This document shows, one piece after another, positions 1,767 through 9,179 of a stretch of DNA of 10,301 nt. Position numbers and translations under genes: made by a program. Numbering within the stretch: position 1 is the stretch's first letter; every line of letters begins with the position of its first letter. This stretch comes from an uncultured Oscillospiraceae bacterium. Its GTDB lineage: Bacteria; Bacillota_A; Clostridia; Oscillospirales; Oscillospiraceae. The stretch lies in the NCBI GenBank assembly GCA_944387755.1, contig CALXGC010000146.1, forward strand, positions 1 to 10,301. Reading direction: 5' to 3'. Below the pieces are notes generated by a model. That model did no database searches, had not been told where the DNA came from, and worked only from the letters and a program-made list of their open reading frames with translations.

Positions 1767-4061
1767 TCAGAAGTTCTGCTGCCTTCTGCGGGTGACAAGG
1801 AACAGAGCGCCAGCCGCCGCCAGGATGGCCGCGCCGCCCACGGTGAACATCGCGGTGCCCATGCCGCCGGTGTGGGGGACGGGGCTGTTGGCGAAGTTCA
1901 CGTCCACCAGGTTGGTGGCCGCGTCGGCGTCCTTGGTGATGGTAATCTCCAGAGGCGTGTCGCTCTTGACATAGTTGTCGGGAGCATCGGTCTCCACCAG
2001 GTAGTAGGTGCCCTCGTCCAGGCCGTCAATGCGCACATAGCCGTCGCTGCCGGAGACGATACCATCCTTCACAACCGTTCCGCCTTCATCGGGCTTCCCA
2101 TCGTACAGGGTAAACGTTGCGCCAGCCAGGCCGGTGGCCGTGAAGCCTTCGCTGCCGGGGGTGCCGGTAGCGGTGGTCTGGTCATACTTGAAGATGTTGA
2201 TGCCGTAGGTCTCCACGGTGACGGTGGCGGTGCTGGTCTTGTCCGTGGGGTAGGACACATAGACGCTGTTGAGATAGTCGCCGGCCTTAGCACCCTGATT
2301 CAGCGTAGTGCTGTAGGTCACGGTGATCTTGGTGGCATTCTCAATATCGGTATCGCTGATAATACCGGCTTCATACAGGGCCACCAGGTCAATGGCGATT
2401 TCAAAGTCGCAGGTGAACGCCTCCTGACCCTCCTCAGCGGGATGCTCCACGTTGGCGGTGTAGGTGTAGTAAGTAACCGTTCCGTTGCCGTTGGTCTTGG
2501 ACAGCGTGGTGTTGCCAATCTTCACAACGGGCTCTGCCGTCAGGGCGTCAAATGCGTCGTCCATCTGGTCGTGGAAGGTCAGGATGTACTCGCCGCGCTC
2601 CTCCGCCAGCAGGTTTACGGCGGGAGGCGTCTCAACTTGAGGAGGCTGCGCCGGGTCGGCCTCGATGTAGTTGAGCAGATCGTTGGGCACGTTGGACTCC
2701 AGCTGGAACGTCACCGTATCGCCGGCGGCCACGATGTCGCTGTCCACATACTGGGAGGTTTCGCCCTCGCCGGGAATCACGATGTCCTTGTCAATGCCGG
2801 GGTAGTTGGTCTTGGGTACAGGCTTGCCGCTCTGCCAGTAAATCAAATCCTTGAACCAGGTGAACGTTACCAAAAAGTTCTCCGGGTCGTCCACGCCGAA
2901 GGTTAGGGTGTGGGAGCCTTCCTCATTGGCCTTTTCAATTGCGGCCTGAATTTCTGCGTTGGCGCCTTCCGGATTCGGAGACCAACTGATTTCGGCGTCC
3001 TCTTTGCCGGTCCAGAGCCAATAGCCTTCGGTGTTAGGGGCAACATAGTTGGCGTGCAGCTCAATCTGGCCGGTGGTGTTTTGGCCGGAGACGACAAAGG
3101 AGTTGCTGCCCATGGTGTTGGCCGCCAGAATCTCCTCCGCCTTGCCGCCGTTGTCCTCCAGGTTGACCAGGCCGATAATGGCATTGGTCAGGTTGTTGTT
3201 GGAGATATTAACGGTATAGCCGTTGCTTTCCGCGCCGCCCGCGAACTGGTCCTCAAAATACGCCTTGCAGTACAGGTCGTTGCCGGTGAGGGTGTTGTTG
3301 GTGAAGGTGTAAGTACCCATGTCGCCGTCCACGCTGTCGCCGGAATACTGGTGGATAGCGAAAGCGCAGTTGGTGAAGGCGTTGCCGTCGATGGTGACAG
3401 CAGCCACGTCCGCGCTGTCGGACTGGCCGCGGATGCCCTCCATCAGGTTGGTGAAGGTGCAGCCTTTAATGGTGAAGCCGCTGTACTTGCTGATGGAAAT
3501 ACCCACGTTGCCATTGCCCTGGCCGCTCATGCTGCCATTGCCGGTGAAGTCGCAATTCCGGATGGTGAAGTGATCGGCATACACGCCCGCCTCGTTGTGG
3601 TTGCTGATGGCGGCGTTCATGTGGTGGCCGTTTCCGGGACGAGTTGTGCCGACGGTGATGGTGAGGCCGTCCAGGGTGACGTTCTGGGCGTCCCAGAGCT
3701 GAATACCGCCCAGGTCCATCCAGTTGCCGGAGTTAAAGGTTACGTCCGGAGTGGAACCGTTCAGGGTCTCTACAGTTACGTCCGCGCCGTCGGCGGCTTT
3801 AACGGTCAGACCGTCCAAATCGCTTAACACGACGAAACGGTTGTAAATACCCGTACCGACCTCGATAGTCCAGCCGGTTTTGTCCGTTTGGCCGCTGATG
3901 TAATTGATCGCTTCCTGAATGCCGTCTGCGCCGTCCTCCGCCGTCACAGAGGCAGTCTTTCCGTCATAGGAAACTGCGAAGACGGCGGTGGGCATCAGAC
4001 TCAGAACCATAGCCAGGGCCATAAGGCTGCTGAACAGACGGGATTTCAATTTTTTACCCAT
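1767..4061 (-). CDS. Sortase-anchored surface protein with beta-helix and pilin-type isopeptide domains
   Basis: A 764-residue exported cell-wall protein, probably an adhesin or pilin-like structural protein. A signal peptide occupies residues 1-29 (MGKKLKSRLF, hydrophobic core, AVFA before the likely cut). Residues about 50-345 are Asn/Gly-rich with recurring 'FTIRNC', 'VTIDGN', 'YTFTNN', 'VNISNN' turns, the pattern of right-handed parallel beta-helix (PbH1) repeats. Residues about 415-610 resemble the fimbrial isopeptide-forming D2 domain. Residues about 615-710 look like a SpaA/Cna-B domain, with a candidate bond lysine in IFKYD (K625) and the E-box YYLVETDAP (E690). The C-terminus has the sorting motif VPHTG (728-732), a hydrophobic segment (738-757) and the tail RRRQQNF. 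The frame is open further upstream to 4340, but the signal peptide sets the start at 4061; the upstream purine-rich AAAGGAG sits 13 bases before it, rather far. Target of binding is unknown. No sortase gene lies in the window. GC content looks lower than in the neighbours. Confidence 0.88.
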   Translation of the reverse strand: MGKKLKSRLFSSLMALAMVLSLMPTAVFAVSYDGKTASVTAEDGADGIQEAINYISGQTDKTGWTIEVGTGIYNRFVVLSDLDGLTVKAADGADVTVETLNGSTPDVTFNSGNWMDLGGIQLWDAQNVTLDGLTITVGTTRPGNGHHMNAAISNHNEAGVYADHFTIRNCDFTGNGSMSGQGNGNVGISISKYSGFTIKGCTFTNLMEGIRGQSDSADVAAVTIDGNAFTNCAFAIHQYSGDSVDGDMGTYTFTNNTLTGNDLYCKAYFEDQFAGGAESNGYTVNISNNNLTNAIIGLVNLEDNGGKAEEILAANTMGSNSFVVSGQNTTGQIELHANYVAPNTEGYWLWTGKEDAEISWSPNPEGANAEIQAAIEKANEEGSHTLTFGVDDPENFLVTFTWFKDLIYWQSGKPVPKTNYPGIDKDIVIPGEGETSQYVDSDIVAAGDTVTFQLESNVPNDLLNYIEADPAQPPQVETPPAVNLLAEERGEYILTFHDQMDDAFDALTAEPVVKIGNTTLSKTNGNGTVTYYTYTANVEHPAEEGQEAFTCDFEIAIDLVALYEAGIISDTDIENATKITVTYSTTLNQGAKAGDYLNSVYVSYPTDKTSTATVTVETYGINIFKYDQTTATGTPGSEGFTATGLAGATFTLYDGKPDEGGTVVKDGIVSGSDGYVRIDGLDEGTYYLVETDAPDNYVKSDTPLEITITKDADAATNLVDVNFANSPVPHTGGMGTAMFTVGGAAILAAAGALFLVTRRRQQNF

Positions 4062-4140
4062 AAAGCGCTCGCTTCTCCTTTCAAGTCCGGTCAAAATGGT
4101 TTGCCTAACATTATGGTGTGCGAAGCTGTGGAAAAAATTG

Positions 4141-4228
4141 TGCGCCTCCTCTCCGCGCACCCGGCGGAGCCTGTCAGAGGAGGCTGTCCGCCGGGTGCGT
4201 TTTTGGGGGGCGGCGCCCCCCAAAAAAA
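4141..4228 (-). repeat. Compound palindromic element in the surface-protein leader
   Basis: Two adjacent near-perfect hairpins. The first pairs 4200-4211 with 4215-4226: a 12-bp stem of T5, G6 and C closing a 3-base loop. The second pairs 4156-4168 with 4187-4199, 13 bp perfect, enclosing an 18-base arm with a smaller GCCT/AGGC stem. A third, weaker 5-bp stem (4141-4145 with 4155-4159) shares bases with the second and, on the minus strand, is followed by six T at 4138-4133. The structures could form a terminator/antiterminator pair, or the block could be an interspersed REP- or MITE-like repeat. Whether copies exist elsewhere cannot be seen here. Confidence 0.6.
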
Positions 4229-4241
4229 CCGCTTTAATACT

Positions 4242-4270
4242 ATCATAATCCATAAGAAAAGGCAAGTAAA
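4242..4270 (-). promoter_or_regulatory. Putative SigA promoter for the surface-protein gene
   Basis: On the minus strand, TTTACT (4270-4265, four of six consensus bases), a 17-base spacer and TATGAT (4247-4242, five of six). Transcription would start near 4235, at the edge of the hairpin element, giving a leader of about 170 bases. Confidence 0.55.
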
Positions 4271-4334
4271 ATGCGGAAATTTTGTTGACTTGACAGGAAT
4301 TTAACAAAGAAAGACCGAAAACAGCGGAGTTCCA

Positions 4335-4349
4335 TGACACATTTTGTCA
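4335..4349. promoter_or_regulatory. Candidate operator TGACA-N5-TGTCA
   Basis: A 15-base inverted repeat with 5-base arms, 15 bases upstream of the -35 of the activase promoter and about 65 bases upstream of the -35 of the divergent surface-protein promoter. The position suits a transcription factor site acting on the activase gene, but the arms are short and I cannot name a regulator. Confidence 0.3.
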
Positions 4350-4364
4350 GGGAAAAGGAACCGG

Positions 4365-4393
4365 TTGCGGTCTGGTGGAAAATGTATTATAAT
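4365..4393 (+). promoter_or_regulatory. Strong SigA-type promoter for the activase-fusion gene
   Basis: TTGCGG (4365-4370), exactly 17 bases, then a perfect TATAAT (4388-4393). Predicted start is near 4400. It is the best promoter match in the window and sits about 325 bases ahead of the coding start, which implies a long leader. Confidence 0.8.
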
Positions 4394-4618
4394 AAATAGG
4401 ACAACATACGCCCGGAGGATAGCGCTCCGGACCACGCGGCGGCCGCCTTTTTATGAAGGCAGGCCGCCGTACTGCCGCCAGGAGGGGAGCGGACGTGCAG
4501 ACTGCCGGAGAACAGCCGGGCGGCAGGGGCGTAAGTTGTAAAAAAAGAACGAAATTCGCACAGAAATTGTTTAAAACGGAACTAAAATTTACACTTTCTA
4601 AACACAAAATATTGTTTT

Positions 4619-4648
4619 TTGACAAGAACATAACGGAAAAGATATGTA
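4619..4648 (+). promoter_or_regulatory. Possible second promoter inside the leader
   Basis: A perfect -35 TTGACA (4619-4624) is followed after 18 bases by a poor -10 TATGTA (4643-4648); a better TAAAAT (4647-4652) is at 22 bases, too far. It might give a shorter transcript under an activator, but this is weak. Confidence 0.25.
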
Positions 4649-4708
4649 AAATGATGTCTGAACATGTACAAAACTTGAGAGAAGCGGCACCCCTGCGCCG
4701 CTCAAGCG

Positions 4709-4713
4709 AAGGA
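4709..4713 (+). promoter_or_regulatory. Ribosome binding site of the activase-fusion gene
   Basis: AAGGA lies 10 bases before the ATG at 4724. A second purine block, GGGAG at 4717-4721, is too close to be the main site. The start is also supported by protein homology: the ASKHA fold begins within ten residues. Confidence 0.6.
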
Positions 4714-4723
4714 ACTGGGAGCC

Positions 4724-7700
4724 ATGAGTAAAGAGAGAATTATTCTGCATGTAGGAATTGACGTGGGGTCCACGACCACGAAAATTGCCGCCCTGGACAC
4801 GCGGACGGGGCGGGTGGTGTACTCTGACTATCAGCGGCACCACGCGGACCAGGTGAAGAGCGTCTCCGACGCCCTGTGGAAGATCTATGGACGGTATCCG
4901 GACGCCCAGTTCCACCTGGCCCTCACCGGGTCGGGGGCCAAGCGCCTGGGCGACGCCCTGGGCGTGCCCTATGTCCAGGAGGTGGTGGCCAACTCCATCG
5001 CCCTGCGCGCCAAGTATGAGAATGTGGGCGCAGCCATCGAGCTGGGCGGCCAGGACGCCAAAATCATTTTCTTCCGCAAGGACGAGGCCACCGGCCGGCT
5101 GGAGGCCGCCGACATGCGGATGAACGGCAGCTGCGCCGGGGGCACCGGGGCCTTCATCGACGAGGTGGCCGCCATTTTGAACGTGCCCATCGAGGCGTTT
5201 AACGCCCTGGCGGCCAAGGGGGACTGCGTCTATGACGTGTCCGGCCGGTGCGGCGTGTACGCCAAGACGGACATACAGCCTCTGCTGAACCAGGGGGTGT
5301 CCAAGGAAAACCTGGCCCTGTCCGCCTTCCACGCCATCGCCAAACAGACCATCGGCGGTCTGGCCCAGGGCCTGGAGATCAAAAAGCCCGTGGCCTTCGA
5401 GGGCGGACCTCTCACCTTCAACCCCACCCTGATTCGGGTGTTTGCCCAGCGGCTGAACCTGAAGCCGGAGGAGATTCTGGTCCCGGAGCGCCCGGAGCTG
5501 ATGATGGCCTACGGCGCGGCCCTGTCCCTGGACAGCCTCTACGCCGGCCGGGACACCCAGGTGAAGCCAGAGCGGGTGCTGGACGGCCTTCAGCATGTGA
5601 AGGAGGCCGCCGGCAGCGGGGAGAAGGGAAGGCCCTTCTTCGACACCCCGGCGGAGCGGGAGGAATTCCAGCGCCGTCACACCCTTCCGGACTGGAAGCC
5701 GGTGGAGCTCCATGAGGGCCAGACCGTCCGGGCCTGGCTGGGCATCGACTCCGGCAGCACCACCACAAAATTTGTCCTGCTGGGGGAGAATGAGGAGATT
5801 TTGGACTCCTTTTACGCCCCCAACCAGGGCGACCCCCTGAACGTGGCCAAAGCCGCCCTGCTGGCCATGCGGGACCGGTATCAGAAGGCCGGGGCCAAGC
5901 TGGAGATTTTGGGGGTGGGCACCACCGGCTATGGGGAGCAGCTCTTCGCCAACGCCTTCTCCGCCGAGTGCCATGTGGTGGAGACGGTGGCCCACGCCCG
6001 CGCCGCCGCCCAGTATGTGCCGGACGCCACCTTCCTGCTGGACATCGGCGGACAGGATATGAAGGCCATCTGGCTCTCCCACGGCGTCATCACCAACATT
6101 GTGGTTAACGAGGCCTGCTCCTCTGGCTGCGGCTCCTTTTTGGAGAACTTTGCCGCCTCCCTGCATATCCCGGTGGACCAGATTGCCCAGGCGGCCTTCG
6201 ACGCCCAGAATCCTGCCCATCTGGGCAGCCGCTGCACCGTCTTCATGAACAGCAGCATCGTCACCGAGCAGCGCAACGGCAAGCTGCCTGGCGACATTAT
6301 GGCCGGGCTGTGCCGGTCTATCATTGAGAATGTCTTCACCAAAGTCATCCGTATCTCCAACCTGGACTCCCTGGGGGACACCATCGTGGTCCAGGGGGGG
6401 ACGTTCCGCAACGACGCGGTGGTCCGGGCCCTGGGGCAGTACACAGGCCGGCAGGTCATCCGGGCCCCTTACCCCGGCGTCATGGGAGCCATCGGCGCGG
6501 CCCTGCTCACCCGCGAGCGCATGGCCGGCAAAAAGCGCACCTTCATCGGCCTGGACGCCCTGGAGAGCTTTACATATACCCAGCAGGCCAACTCCCCCTG
6601 CCCCTTCTGCGCCAACCACTGCAAGCGTACCATCATTACCTTCTCCAACGGCAGCTCCTGGGTGACAAACAACCGCTGCGAGCGGGGCGAAATTCTGGGC
6701 GACCCCAGGGACGAGGGCGTCCGGGAGCAGCTCCAGGCCAGGAGCCGGGAGAAGAAGCAGACCCCCAACCTGTTCCGCCTGCGGGAGGAGCTGCTGTTTC
6801 AGGACTATCCCATCCCGGAGCCCCAGACAAAGCGGGACACGGTCATCGGCCTGCCCCGTGTGCTGGCCTTCTGGGACGCGGCCCCTTTCTGGACGACGTT
6901 TTTCCGCTGCCTGGGCTTCTCTGTAAAGCTCTCCCACAGGAGCACCCGGAAGATGTACGAGAGCGGCCTGTCCGCCGTCACCTCCGACACCGTCTGCTTC
7001 CCCGCCAAGCTGGTCCACGGCCATATCCGGGACCTGGTGCAGCAGGGGGTGGACCGGATCTTTATGCCCTCCGTCACCACCGTGCCCTCGGAGAACACGG
7101 AGAAGAACAGCGAGTCCATGTGCGCCGTGGTAAAGGGCTATCCCCTCATCATCCGCAACTCCGACGACCCGGAGCGCCAGTGGGGCGTTCCCTTTGACGC
7201 CCCGCTGTTCCACTGGTATACCGAGGCGGACCGGACGGAACAGCTGACAAAATATATGGAGGACGCCTATCAAATCCCCGCCCAGGAGGTCCGCGCCGCC
7301 ATCCGGGCGGCGGACCGGGCCCAGAAGATGTTTAGGCGGAAGCTGGTTCAGGCGGGGGAGAAGGTGCTCAACCAGGTGGAGAAGCGGCGGACCTATGCCG
7401 TGGTGCTGGCCGCCCGCCCCTATCAGACCGACGCCCTGGTGAACCACGACCTGCCCGATCTGTTTGCCGGCCTGGGCATTCCGGTGCTCACGGCGGACTC
7501 CGTGCCCGGCGCCAACGAGGTGGACCTGAGCCGGAGCATCCTGGATATTGTGAACAACTACCACGCCAGAATGCTGTCCTCGGCCATCCTGGCCGCCCAG
7601 GACCCCCGGCTGGAGTATGTGCAGATTGTCAGCTTCGGCTGCGGCCACGACGCCTATCTCTCCGATGAAATTATCCGCCTCATGGGGGAGATTTCGGGCA

Positions 7701-9133
7701 AGACCCCCCTGGTGCTCAAGCTGGACGAGAGCGACGTGCAGGGCCCCCTGCGCATCCGGGTGCGGTCCTTTGTGGAGACCCTGGCCATGCGCCGGGAGCG
7801 GGAGAAGGCCCGCCCCGTGCGGGAGCTGGAGGACCCCTACCCGGTGAAGTTCCGGCGGGAGGACAAGAAGGAGCGCCTGGTGCTGATTCCCAACGTGTCC
7901 CACGCCTTCTGCCGGGTGATGTCCGCCGCCATGGGGAAGGACGGCCTGCGCACCGAGCCCCTGCCCGTGGGCCGGGAGGAGGCCATCCGCCTGGGCAAGC
8001 AGTACGTCCACAACGACATCTGCTTCCCCGCCCAGGTGGTCATCGGCGAGGCTCTGGCCGCCCTGCGGAGCGGAAAATATGATCTGGACCATGTGGCCAT
8101 CGCCATGGCCAAATATGTGGGCGACTGCCGCCTGACCCACTACAGCGCCCTGCTGCGCAAGGCCCTGGACGACGCGGGCTTTGCCCAGGTGCCCATCGTC
8201 ACCAACGACGGAGCGGACAGCCACGACCAGCACCCCGGCTACCGGATGAGCCTGGCGGCGTCTATGCGCATCGCCTTTGCCCTGCCTATGATTGACGTGC
8301 TGGAGGAGCTTCTGAGAAAGATCCGGCCCTATGAGACGGCGCCGGGCAGCGCGAATCAAGCCTTCGCTCAGGCCCTGGACCTGCTCATCGGCGGCCTGGA
8401 GCGCCGGGGCATTCGGGGGGCGGAGCAGGGCTTCCGGAAGGCCGTCCAGGTGATGAAGGAGGTGGCGTACGACCGCTCCAATCCCCGGCCCACGGTGCTC
8501 ATCGTGGGGGAGTACCTGCTGAACTTCCACCCCGGCGCCAACCACGACATTGAGGACTATCTGGAGAAAAACGGCTTTGAGATCATCGAGGCCCGCATGA
8601 CCGACGTGATTCAAAAGCTGTACTTCAATAAAGACAGCCAGATTAAGGAGTACCACATCCACAAGCCGGCGGGGGAGAAGCTCTGGTACGCCACGGCGTA
8701 CGCCATCTTCCAGGCGGCCCACGCCATGACCGACCGCATCGCCAAAGAGCACCCCCTCTACCAGCGGGCGGTGCGCCTGCCGGAGCTGGTGGAGAAAAGC
8801 GACCCCATTATCCACCACACCTTTGACGCCGGAGAGGGCGTGCTGATTCCCGGAGAGATTCTCCACCACGCCGCCCACGGCTGCCGGGCCTTTGTGATTT
8901 TGCAGCCCTTCGGCTGCCTGCCCAACCACGTGGTGGGCCGGGGCGTGGCCAAGCGCCTGAAGGAGCTGTATCCCGACGCCCAGATTCTGCCCCTGGACTA
9001 CGACCCGGATGTGAGCTTTGCCAACCTGGAGAACCGGCTTCAGATGCTGGTGATGAACGCCAGGAGCAAGGCCCAGGAGAGCGCGAAAGCGGACGCGGAC
9101 CCGGCGCGGAGCGACATGGCGAAGGCGATTTGA
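4724..9133 (+). CDS. Giant acyl-CoA dehydratase activase / HgdB-like fusion protein
   Basis: A 1469-residue cytoplasmic protein of the 2-hydroxyacyl-CoA dehydratase activase (HgdC/BcrAD/BadFG plus DUF2229) family. Such activators use ATP hydrolysis to push a low-potential electron into an iron-sulfur partner; this protein's substrate is unknown. Module A (about 6-275) has GIDVGSTTTK (11-20), LGGQDAK (107-113) and cysteines C137 and C176. Module B (about 336-600) has GIDSGSTTTK (340-349), DIGGQDMK (440-447) and C465 and C504. Both pairs are 39 residues apart, as I recall for the HgdC cluster ligands. A linker carries C626, C629, C633, C652 (CX2CX3CX18C). Two HgdB-like modules follow: about 700-1030 (VCFPAK C758, C800, FGCG C973) and about 1050-1450 (ICFPAQ C1100, C1135, C1387, FGC C1398). 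Single-gene unit with its own promoter and terminator. Oxygen-sensitive clusters and an anaerobic lifestyle are expected. Family membership is sure; dehydratase, reductase or stand-alone electron-transfer role is open. Confidence 0.93.
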   Translation: MSKERIILHVGIDVGSTTTKIAALDTRTGRVVYSDYQRHHADQVKSVSDALWKIYGRYPDAQFHLALTGSGAKRLGDALGVPYVQEVVANSIALRAKYENVGAAIELGGQDAKIIFFRKDEATGRLEAADMRMNGSCAGGTGAFIDEVAAILNVPIEAFNALAAKGDCVYDVSGRCGVYAKTDIQPLLNQGVSKENLALSAFHAIAKQTIGGLAQGLEIKKPVAFEGGPLTFNPTLIRVFAQRLNLKPEEILVPERPELMMAYGAALSLDSLYAGRDTQVKPERVLDGLQHVKEAAGSGEKGRPFFDTPAEREEFQRRHTLPDWKPVELHEGQTVRAWLGIDSGSTTTKFVLLGENEEILDSFYAPNQGDPLNVAKAALLAMRDRYQKAGAKLEILGVGTTGYGEQLFANAFSAECHVVETVAHARAAAQYVPDATFLLDIGGQDMKAIWLSHGVITNIVVNEACSSGCGSFLENFAASLHIPVDQIAQAAFDAQNPAHLGSRCTVFMNSSIVTEQRNGKLPGDIMAGLCRSIIENVFTKVIRISNLDSLGDTIVVQGGTFRNDAVVRALGQYTGRQVIRAPYPGVMGAIGAALLTRERMAGKKRTFIGLDALESFTYTQQANSPCPFCANHCKRTIITFSNGSSWVTNNRCERGEILGDPRDEGVREQLQARSREKKQTPNLFRLREELLFQDYPIPEPQTKRDTVIGLPRVLAFWDAAPFWTTFFRCLGFSVKLSHRSTRKMYESGLSAVTSDTVCFPAKLVHGHIRDLVQQGVDRIFMPSVTTVPSENTEKNSESMCAVVKGYPLIIRNSDDPERQWGVPFDAPLFHWYTEADRTEQLTKYMEDAYQIPAQEVRAAIRAADRAQKMFRRKLVQAGEKVLNQVEKRRTYAVVLAARPYQTDALVNHDLPDLFAGLGIPVLTADSVPGANEVDLSRSILDIVNNYHARMLSSAILAAQDPRLEYVQIVSFGCGHDAYLSDEIIRLMGEISGKTPLVLKLDESDVQGPLRIRVRSFVETLAMRREREKARPVRELEDPYPVKFRREDKKERLVLIPNVSHAFCRVMSAAMGKDGLRTEPLPVGREEAIRLGKQYVHNDICFPAQVVIGEALAALRSGKYDLDHVAIAMAKYVGDCRLTHYSALLRKALDDAGFAQVPIVTNDGADSHDQHPGYRMSLAASMRIAFALPMIDVLEELLRKIRPYETAPGSANQAFAQALDLLIGGLERRGIRGAEQGFRKAVQVMKEVAYDRSNPRPTVLIVGEYLLNFHPGANHDIEDYLEKNGFEIIEARMTDVIQKLYFNKDSQIKEYHIHKPAGEKLWYATAYAIFQAAHAMTDRIAKEHPLYQRAVRLPELVEKSDPIIHHTFDAGEGVLIPGEILHHAAHGCRAFVILQPFGCLPNHVVGRGVAKRLKELYPDAQILPLDYDPDVSFANLENRLQMLVMNARSKAQESAKADADPARSDMAKAI

Positions 9134-9138
9134 GCACA

Positions 9139-9179
9139 GAAAAACCGCTGCTGGAAATCCTTCTCAGCAGCGGTTTTTC
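9139..9179. terminator. Bidirectional Rho-independent terminator between convergent genes
   Basis: A perfect 15-bp stem (9139-9153 with 9165-9179) and an 11-base loop. The outer stem is A5 on one side and T5 on the other, so it works in both directions. It begins five bases after the activase stop and ends 19 bases before the glnS stop. Confidence 0.92.

Follow-up and report, generated by a model that had tools for sequence, protein, structure and literature searches.

Pairs of an ATP-driven activase and an HgdB-type protein catalyse reductions that rank among the most difficult in biology and lie at lower potentials than ordinary ferredoxin chemistry reaches. The closest described systems are the 2-hydroxyacyl-CoA dehydratases (HgdABC/HadBCI), the class I benzoyl-CoA reductases (Bcr/Bzd/Mbd) and the double-cubane proteins with their partners (YjiM/YjiL and DCCP/DCCP-R). 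The accessible portion of PMC8473912 describes the cluster of the HgdC-type activator as held by two cysteines from each subunit and each dehydratase cluster of 2-hydroxyglutaryl-CoA dehydratase as held by three, and the accessible portion of PMC11971306 describes a catalytic [4Fe-4S] cluster bound by three cysteines in BzdO and an [8Fe-9S] cluster with six cysteine-bound irons in BzdN. Here, a stretch of 10,301 nt (the window) of contig CALXGC010000146.1, from an uncultured gut bacterium of the Oscillospiraceae (GCA_944387755.1), was analysed, in which one gene (4724–9133, + strand) encodes a chain of 1469 residues, followed by a stop codon, with relatives of like length. The open reading frame (ORF) call, Pfam, NCBIfam and profile comparisons bear out an earlier note on this DNA, which had described the chain as two activase modules followed by two dehydratase-like, D-component-like modules (D-like modules 1 and 2 below); its module list was incomplete, as a conserved four-cysteine element between activase module 2 and D-like module 1 had been overlooked. 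The fused protein is probably a single-chain, donor-fed, ATP-driven low-potential reductase.

Activase module 1 comprises residues 8–275 (4745–5548, +) with the candidate ligands C137 and C176, and activase module 2 comprises residues 337–605 (5732–6538, +) with the candidate ligands C465 and C504 and an extra conserved cysteine, C469. TIGR00241 matched two stretches of the fused protein (269.7 bits, cut-off 125.4), as did BcrAD_BadFG of Pfam, and sequence matches to the solved activator 4eht were obtained for module 1 (E 5.3e-20) and module 2 (E 1.4e-31). The activase match was found again by VIA-align on the predicted N-terminal model, in support of module 2, and the Foldseek rows listed for the predicted models are ASKHA proteins. 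Both modules carry the phosphate motifs and the two cluster cysteines per unit of HAD-type activases, with C137/C176 and C465/C504 lying inside HgdC motifs. In a tree of 51 activase domains, all rows of activase 1 (17/17) formed one group and all rows of activase 2 (17/17) another, each with support of 100/100; both groups contain fused and half-split members (forms described below), indicating that activases 1 and 2 had diverged by the time the forms separated. A simple tandem duplication was considered as the origin of the pair and dropped, as the tree, which was midpoint-rooted and has long HgdC branches, does not show activases 1 and 2 to be sisters.

The four-cysteine element (residues 612–660; 6557–6703, +) consists of C626, C629, C633 and C652, and its spacing of 3, 4 and 19 recurs at the C-terminus of all four stand-alone activases examined (4/4). 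Activases with such a C4 tail are 319–329 aa long, against 246–283 aa for the HgdC/YjiL-type activases encountered. Compared alone with known structures, the element gave two weak, unrelated matches and no relative of known structure; judged by its sequence, it may be a metal site, either Fe-S or Zn. D-like module 1 (residues 700–1030; 6821–7813, +) includes DUF2229 (PF09989, residues 708–927, 232.9 bits, cut-off 29.4) and carries the candidate ligands C758, C800 and C973, its assignment being based on Pfam, cysteine conservation, hhalign and the predicted structure, which is likewise of HGD-D type. D-like module 2 (residues 1045–1452; 7856–9079, +), with the candidate ligands C1100, C1135 and C1398, was assigned by cysteine conservation and hhalign, no Pfam or NCBIfam family being listed over it, and sequence-profile searches of the PDB with either module returned weak, unrelated matches only. 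When stand-alone relatives were added, the two modules aligned with each other in hhalign at 99.5% probability (E 2.4e-22, 310 columns); fusion sequences alone gave a weak match (63%, 69 columns). Compared with 17 aligned HGD-D proteins, module 1 reached 96.1% (E 3.7e-9, 133 C-terminal columns) and module 2 reached 95.8% (E 8.2e-9, 317 columns), and all six stand-alone modules examined in Pfam matched HGD-D at E < 0.01, three of them above the cut-off. Modules 1 and 2 are therefore homologous to each other and to the HgdB/HGD-D family, and by profile and cysteine position they form an HGD-D-type pair with three cluster cysteines each.

Conservation was assessed in 238 sequences of more than 1350 aa each, which form two groups (the window protein, P0001, and P0121 are 37% identical). 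Conserved at 1.00 were C137 and C176; C465, C469 and C504; C626, C629, C633 and C652; C758, C800 and C973; and C1100, C1135 and C1398, of which fourteen are candidate ligands (four in the activase pair, four in the four-cysteine element and three in each D-like module). The same cysteines were invariant in alignments of 126 sequences wherever these lay inside the query range, and with stand-alone modules included, the three cysteines of each module were the only conserved ones (23 rows for module 1, 22 for module 2). HGD-D has three invariant cysteines (C78, C108 and C335, YjiM numbering); in hhalign all three cysteines of module 2 fall on them, and C973 of module 1 falls on the last, the first two lying beyond the aligned columns. 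The earlier note had also offered a YjiM-like double-cubane protein as a model for these modules, in which case the chain would unite a double-cubane (YjiM/DCCP-like) reductase and its reductase partner. Six YjiM-like proteins share nine cysteines, of which modules 1 and 2 keep three each, and the additional ones have no conserved counterpart in either module. Three conserved cysteines per module thus suit a three-cysteine cluster and not a double cubane, so the double-cubane reading was rejected and is considered highly improbable.

For the ATP-driven reductase preferred here, a scheme can be drawn on the model of 2-hydroxyglutaryl-CoA dehydratase, as described in the accessible portion of PMC8473912; from it we infer the cluster types, the pairing in cis, the electron order and the ATP coupling, the module identities and the conservation of the ligand cysteines being observed. 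By pairing in cis, the tandem ASKHA modules would make up one activase ('archerase') and would hold a single [4Fe-4S] cluster on C137/C176/C465/C504, which a ferredoxin or flavodoxin would reduce. ATP use would then drive single electrons from the activase into the two HgdB-type modules, each with a three-cysteine [4Fe-4S] cluster that leaves one iron open. One of these modules would be the active site (module 2 is a low-confidence guess), and the other would store or relay electrons, as in 2-hydroxyacyl-CoA dehydratases, so that electrons might pass from the donor to the activase [4Fe-4S] cluster, then with ATP to one D-like cluster, to the other, open-site cluster and finally to the substrate. 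The putative metal site at C626/C629/C633/C652 could relay electrons to the activase cluster or fasten the activase to the D-like pair. No ferredoxin or flavin domain is among the Pfam and NCBIfam matches of the fused protein, so electrons presumably have to come from an external low-potential donor, and 'self-contained', as the reductase had been called, is too strong a word.

The surroundings of the gene bear on what such a pump would serve. In the window, the genes around it encode an EF-G/TetM-like GTPase, a SpaA-domain surface protein and GlnRS, the latter two (both −) being its immediate flanks; the claim that no dehydratase, CoA-transferase or electron-donor gene adjoins it therefore holds within the window. 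Neighbours were surveyed at 80 loci of the fused gene, a same-strand neighbour being counted within 300 nt, and were found upstream at 47 of the 77 loci having an upstream gene and downstream at 45 of the 74 having a downstream gene. Pfam scans covered 43 of the 47 upstream genes (L002, L008, L009 and L010 were omitted, being probably false ORFs or gene fragments) and, downstream, 42 of the 45 genes (L002, L008 and L010 omitted likewise). Among the first 25 of 48 families listed upstream, MarR (7) and ABC_tran (7) were observed, and among the first 25 of 52 listed downstream, PfkB (8), DegV (3) and MarR (2); within these listed families there was no constant partner, and CoA-transferase, enoyl-CoA reductase and Etf genes were not recurrent. 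This speaks against a fused 2-hydroxyacyl-CoA dehydratase, whose pair would dehydrate a CoA ester via a ketyl radical with ATP only starting catalysis. Such an enzyme would have the same module types and three-cysteine sets, and some relatives are annotated as 2-hydroxyacyl-CoA or 2-hydroxyglutaryl-CoA dehydratase, but HGD-D (PF06050) is not among the 8 Pfam families listed for the fused protein at E up to 1, and 13 of the 14 genomes searched possess ordinary HGD-D genes, several (by eye) next to an activase-like gene; we regard it as quite unlikely. The solitary position in the window, away from pathway neighbours, and the lack of a constant partner among the families listed agree with a reductive repair or activation factor, whose electrons would go to another metalloprotein, as in the activation of corrinoid proteins or methyl-coenzyme M reductase, and not to a small substrate; ATP-driven activation systems of other metalloproteins have been published (PMC12176620 and PMC6739815, accessible portions). 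Since a constant neighbouring target gene was likewise not seen among those families, and the open iron of described HgdB-type enzymes serves a small substrate in the portions of the sources accessible, this role is thought unlikely, if less so than the dehydratase. Both share the pump of the preferred ATP-driven reductase and differ in what it serves, so these likelihoods are not exclusive. The activation complex of methyl-coenzyme M reductase was tried as a relative of the fused protein and discarded, as the main text on it contains none of the terms 'dehydratase', 'Mmp15' and 'BadF'.

The gene had further been credited with its own promoter and terminator. A terminator-like hairpin does lie between it and the convergent GlnRS gene (9139–9179, no strand assigned), with folding z-scores of −4.9 (+) and −5.5 (−) against shuffles, and it is missing from the output of a simple terminator scan; the promoter is not demonstrated, because three consensus matches were observed where 1.3 ± 1.3 are expected in the 6-kb stretch. 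No Rfam families were found in the window. The EF-G/TetM-like ribosomal GTPase gene (3–1589, −) is truncated by the window edge, and the surface protein gene occupies 1767–4340 (−). In L001 and L003 (88% identity), EF-G/TetM-like and GlnRS genes, recognised by eye, flank the fused gene as well, with no surface gene between these matching neighbours. An antisense ORF of 1443 codons under the fused gene (4598–8929, −) is probably a by-product of codon use, and long overlapping ORFs mask the fused gene from ORF calling in L001, L002, L008 and L009. MarR-like genes (by eye) stand directly beside some fused genes (L026, L043, L044, L047, L049 and L073), as does a TetR gene in Collinsella (L133), and in L026, L044 and L133 the regulator gene overlaps or nearly overlaps the fused gene, the TetR gene of Collinsella being a case of true overlap.

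The window protein is a member of a large known family in which the fusion layout is widespread. With PF09989 above its cut-off and tandem BcrAD_BadFG, it belongs to the DUF2229 / acyl-CoA dehydratase activase-related proteins, as had been proposed, and 7998 relatives were scored in this large, already annotated and uncharacterised family. The one-chain layout, presented earlier as a departure from normally separate subunits, is real and is not exceptional, as relatives among the 120 matches listed of the 7998 (one being the window protein itself) are 1450–1541 aa long. Named records gave matches over nearly the full length; the named relatives are from Collinsella (59% identity), Haliovirga (49%), and Listeria, Fusobacterium (half-split) and Acetoanaerobium (about 35%). 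Among the first 20 regions fetched, several forms were observed: full fusions of 1415–1481 aa (L113–L118); a half-split form with an activase-activase-C4-module 1 chain of 976–1004 aa and, after it, module 2 as a gene of its own (L119, L121 and L122), to which L120 adds a 986-aa chain whose second gene is absent from the ORF caller output; and a fully split form of stand-alone genes in the order module 1, module 2, activase (L125–L132). The split and fused forms are equivalent. L123 (3959–8005) and L124 (5765–9811) encode divergent relatives of 1348 aa that contain two activases and module 1, the four-cysteine element and module 2 both being undetected there by blastp, and L129 has an extra module-2-like gene (4309–5478, 389 aa) immediately 3′ of its triad. 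DUF2229 is present in 179 of 199 genomes surveyed, all taken from the phylum to which G002, the Frisingicoccus genome with L022, belongs, and matches were also seen in the control genomes of Thermus composti and Deinobacterium chartae, which are aerobes, Thermotoga maritima and Lactococcus lactis. The literature searched, mostly open-licence and accessible in part (including PMC5322559, PMC6952196, PMC8473912, PMC11574389, PMC10418091 and PMC11971306), assigns no reaction to the family, in agreement with the earlier statement that none is established; a gene of Streptococcus mutans annotated as (R)-2-hydroxyglutaryl-CoA dehydratase activator-related, linked by name only, rises 2.2-fold on manganese depletion according to the accessible portion of PMC6952196.

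A link between the split form and spoVA genes emerged from 48 stand-alone module 1 loci (8 + 40), which were mostly taken downward from the best scores and are therefore not a random sample. The complete triad of module 1, module 2 and activase was present at 42 of them, at least one spoVA-type gene lay upstream on the same strand at 33 (L125–L128, L130, L171, L173–L181, L183, L185, L188–L190, L192–L194, L196–L200, L202–L204, L206 and L209), and SpoVAD was found at 25, the probes being derived from L126, L127 and L130–L132, themselves among the 48. SpoVAD, SpoVAE and a GerA-family protein were confirmed by Pfam at L126, GerA-type matches possibly taking in germinant receptors other than SpoVAF, and at L200 and L204 the split genes lie 2 kb or more from the spoVA-type gene. 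L185, L190, L192 and L205 have module 1–module 2 pairs with no activase gene found alongside, although the sequence continues. The 92 fused or half-split loci examined gave no spoVA match, some of these loci extending hardly beyond the gene. Of the 199 surveyed genomes, 174 have SpoVAD (3 of these calls being matches below the family cut-off) and 25 lack it. A module 1 match of stand-alone grade (E ≤ 1e-50) occurred in 136 of the 174 and in 3 of the 25 (Fisher p 1.6e-10, shared ancestry ignored). Long frames with a DUF2229 match of 238 bits or more, which represent fused or half-split genes, mostly of the paralogous group, occurred in 38 of the 174 and in 14 of the 25 (p 9e-4, shared ancestry again ignored). 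The split form downstream of spoVA is possibly a sporulation-linked archerase system. No paper linking split DUF2229 genes with spoVA was found in the literature searched, the accessible portion of PMC12888040 having the terms in separate contexts. More tentatively, and with considerable doubt, C4-tailed activases with DUF2229-type D-pairs may constitute a branch of ATP-driven radical reductases of their own, the third beside HAD/BCR and DCCP and biochemically distinct from both. In it, the split form would be an enzyme of sporulation that acts together with the dipicolinate system of SpoVA, and the fused form would be its vegetative sister, preferred where a lineage lacks SpoVAD.

The four-cysteine element, the cysteine map and the spoVA-linked split form may be new to specialists. 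The cysteine map points to residues worth testing, one chain with fixed module proportions would spare the reconstitution of activator and partner and so be handy for structure determination and electron paramagnetic resonance, and the spoVA neighbourhood is a surprising physiological lead for a family with no assigned reaction. Compared with HgdABC/HadBCI, the fused protein shares the ASKHA activase with two cluster cysteines per module and the HgdB-type pair with three each; it differs in being one chain with two different activase modules and an added four-cysteine element, and in showing no recurrent CoA-transferase or reductase neighbour among the families listed. Class I benzoyl-CoA reductases likewise have two distinct activase and two HgdB-type units, including BzdO with its three-cysteine [4Fe-4S] cluster, but as separate subunits, and the conserved cysteines needed for the [8Fe-9S] cluster of BzdN (PMC11971306, accessible portion) are absent from modules 1 and 2; the fused protein also scores far below their equivalog cut-offs (BcrA 118.2 vs 578, BcrD 98.3 vs 312.85 and BzdQ 113.1 vs 380.2 bits). 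YjiM/YjiL and DCCP/DCCP-R resemble it in that ATP drives electrons into an HgdB-type protein, one whose physiological role is unknown according to PMC11971306, and differ in the larger number of conserved cysteines in that protein and in their shorter activases. The listed DUF2229 relatives have the same architecture, with no difference found. The split triad beside spoVA has the same parts, the three conserved cysteines per module and the four-cysteine spacing in the activases examined, and differs in having three genes, one activase and, often, a sporulation neighbourhood.
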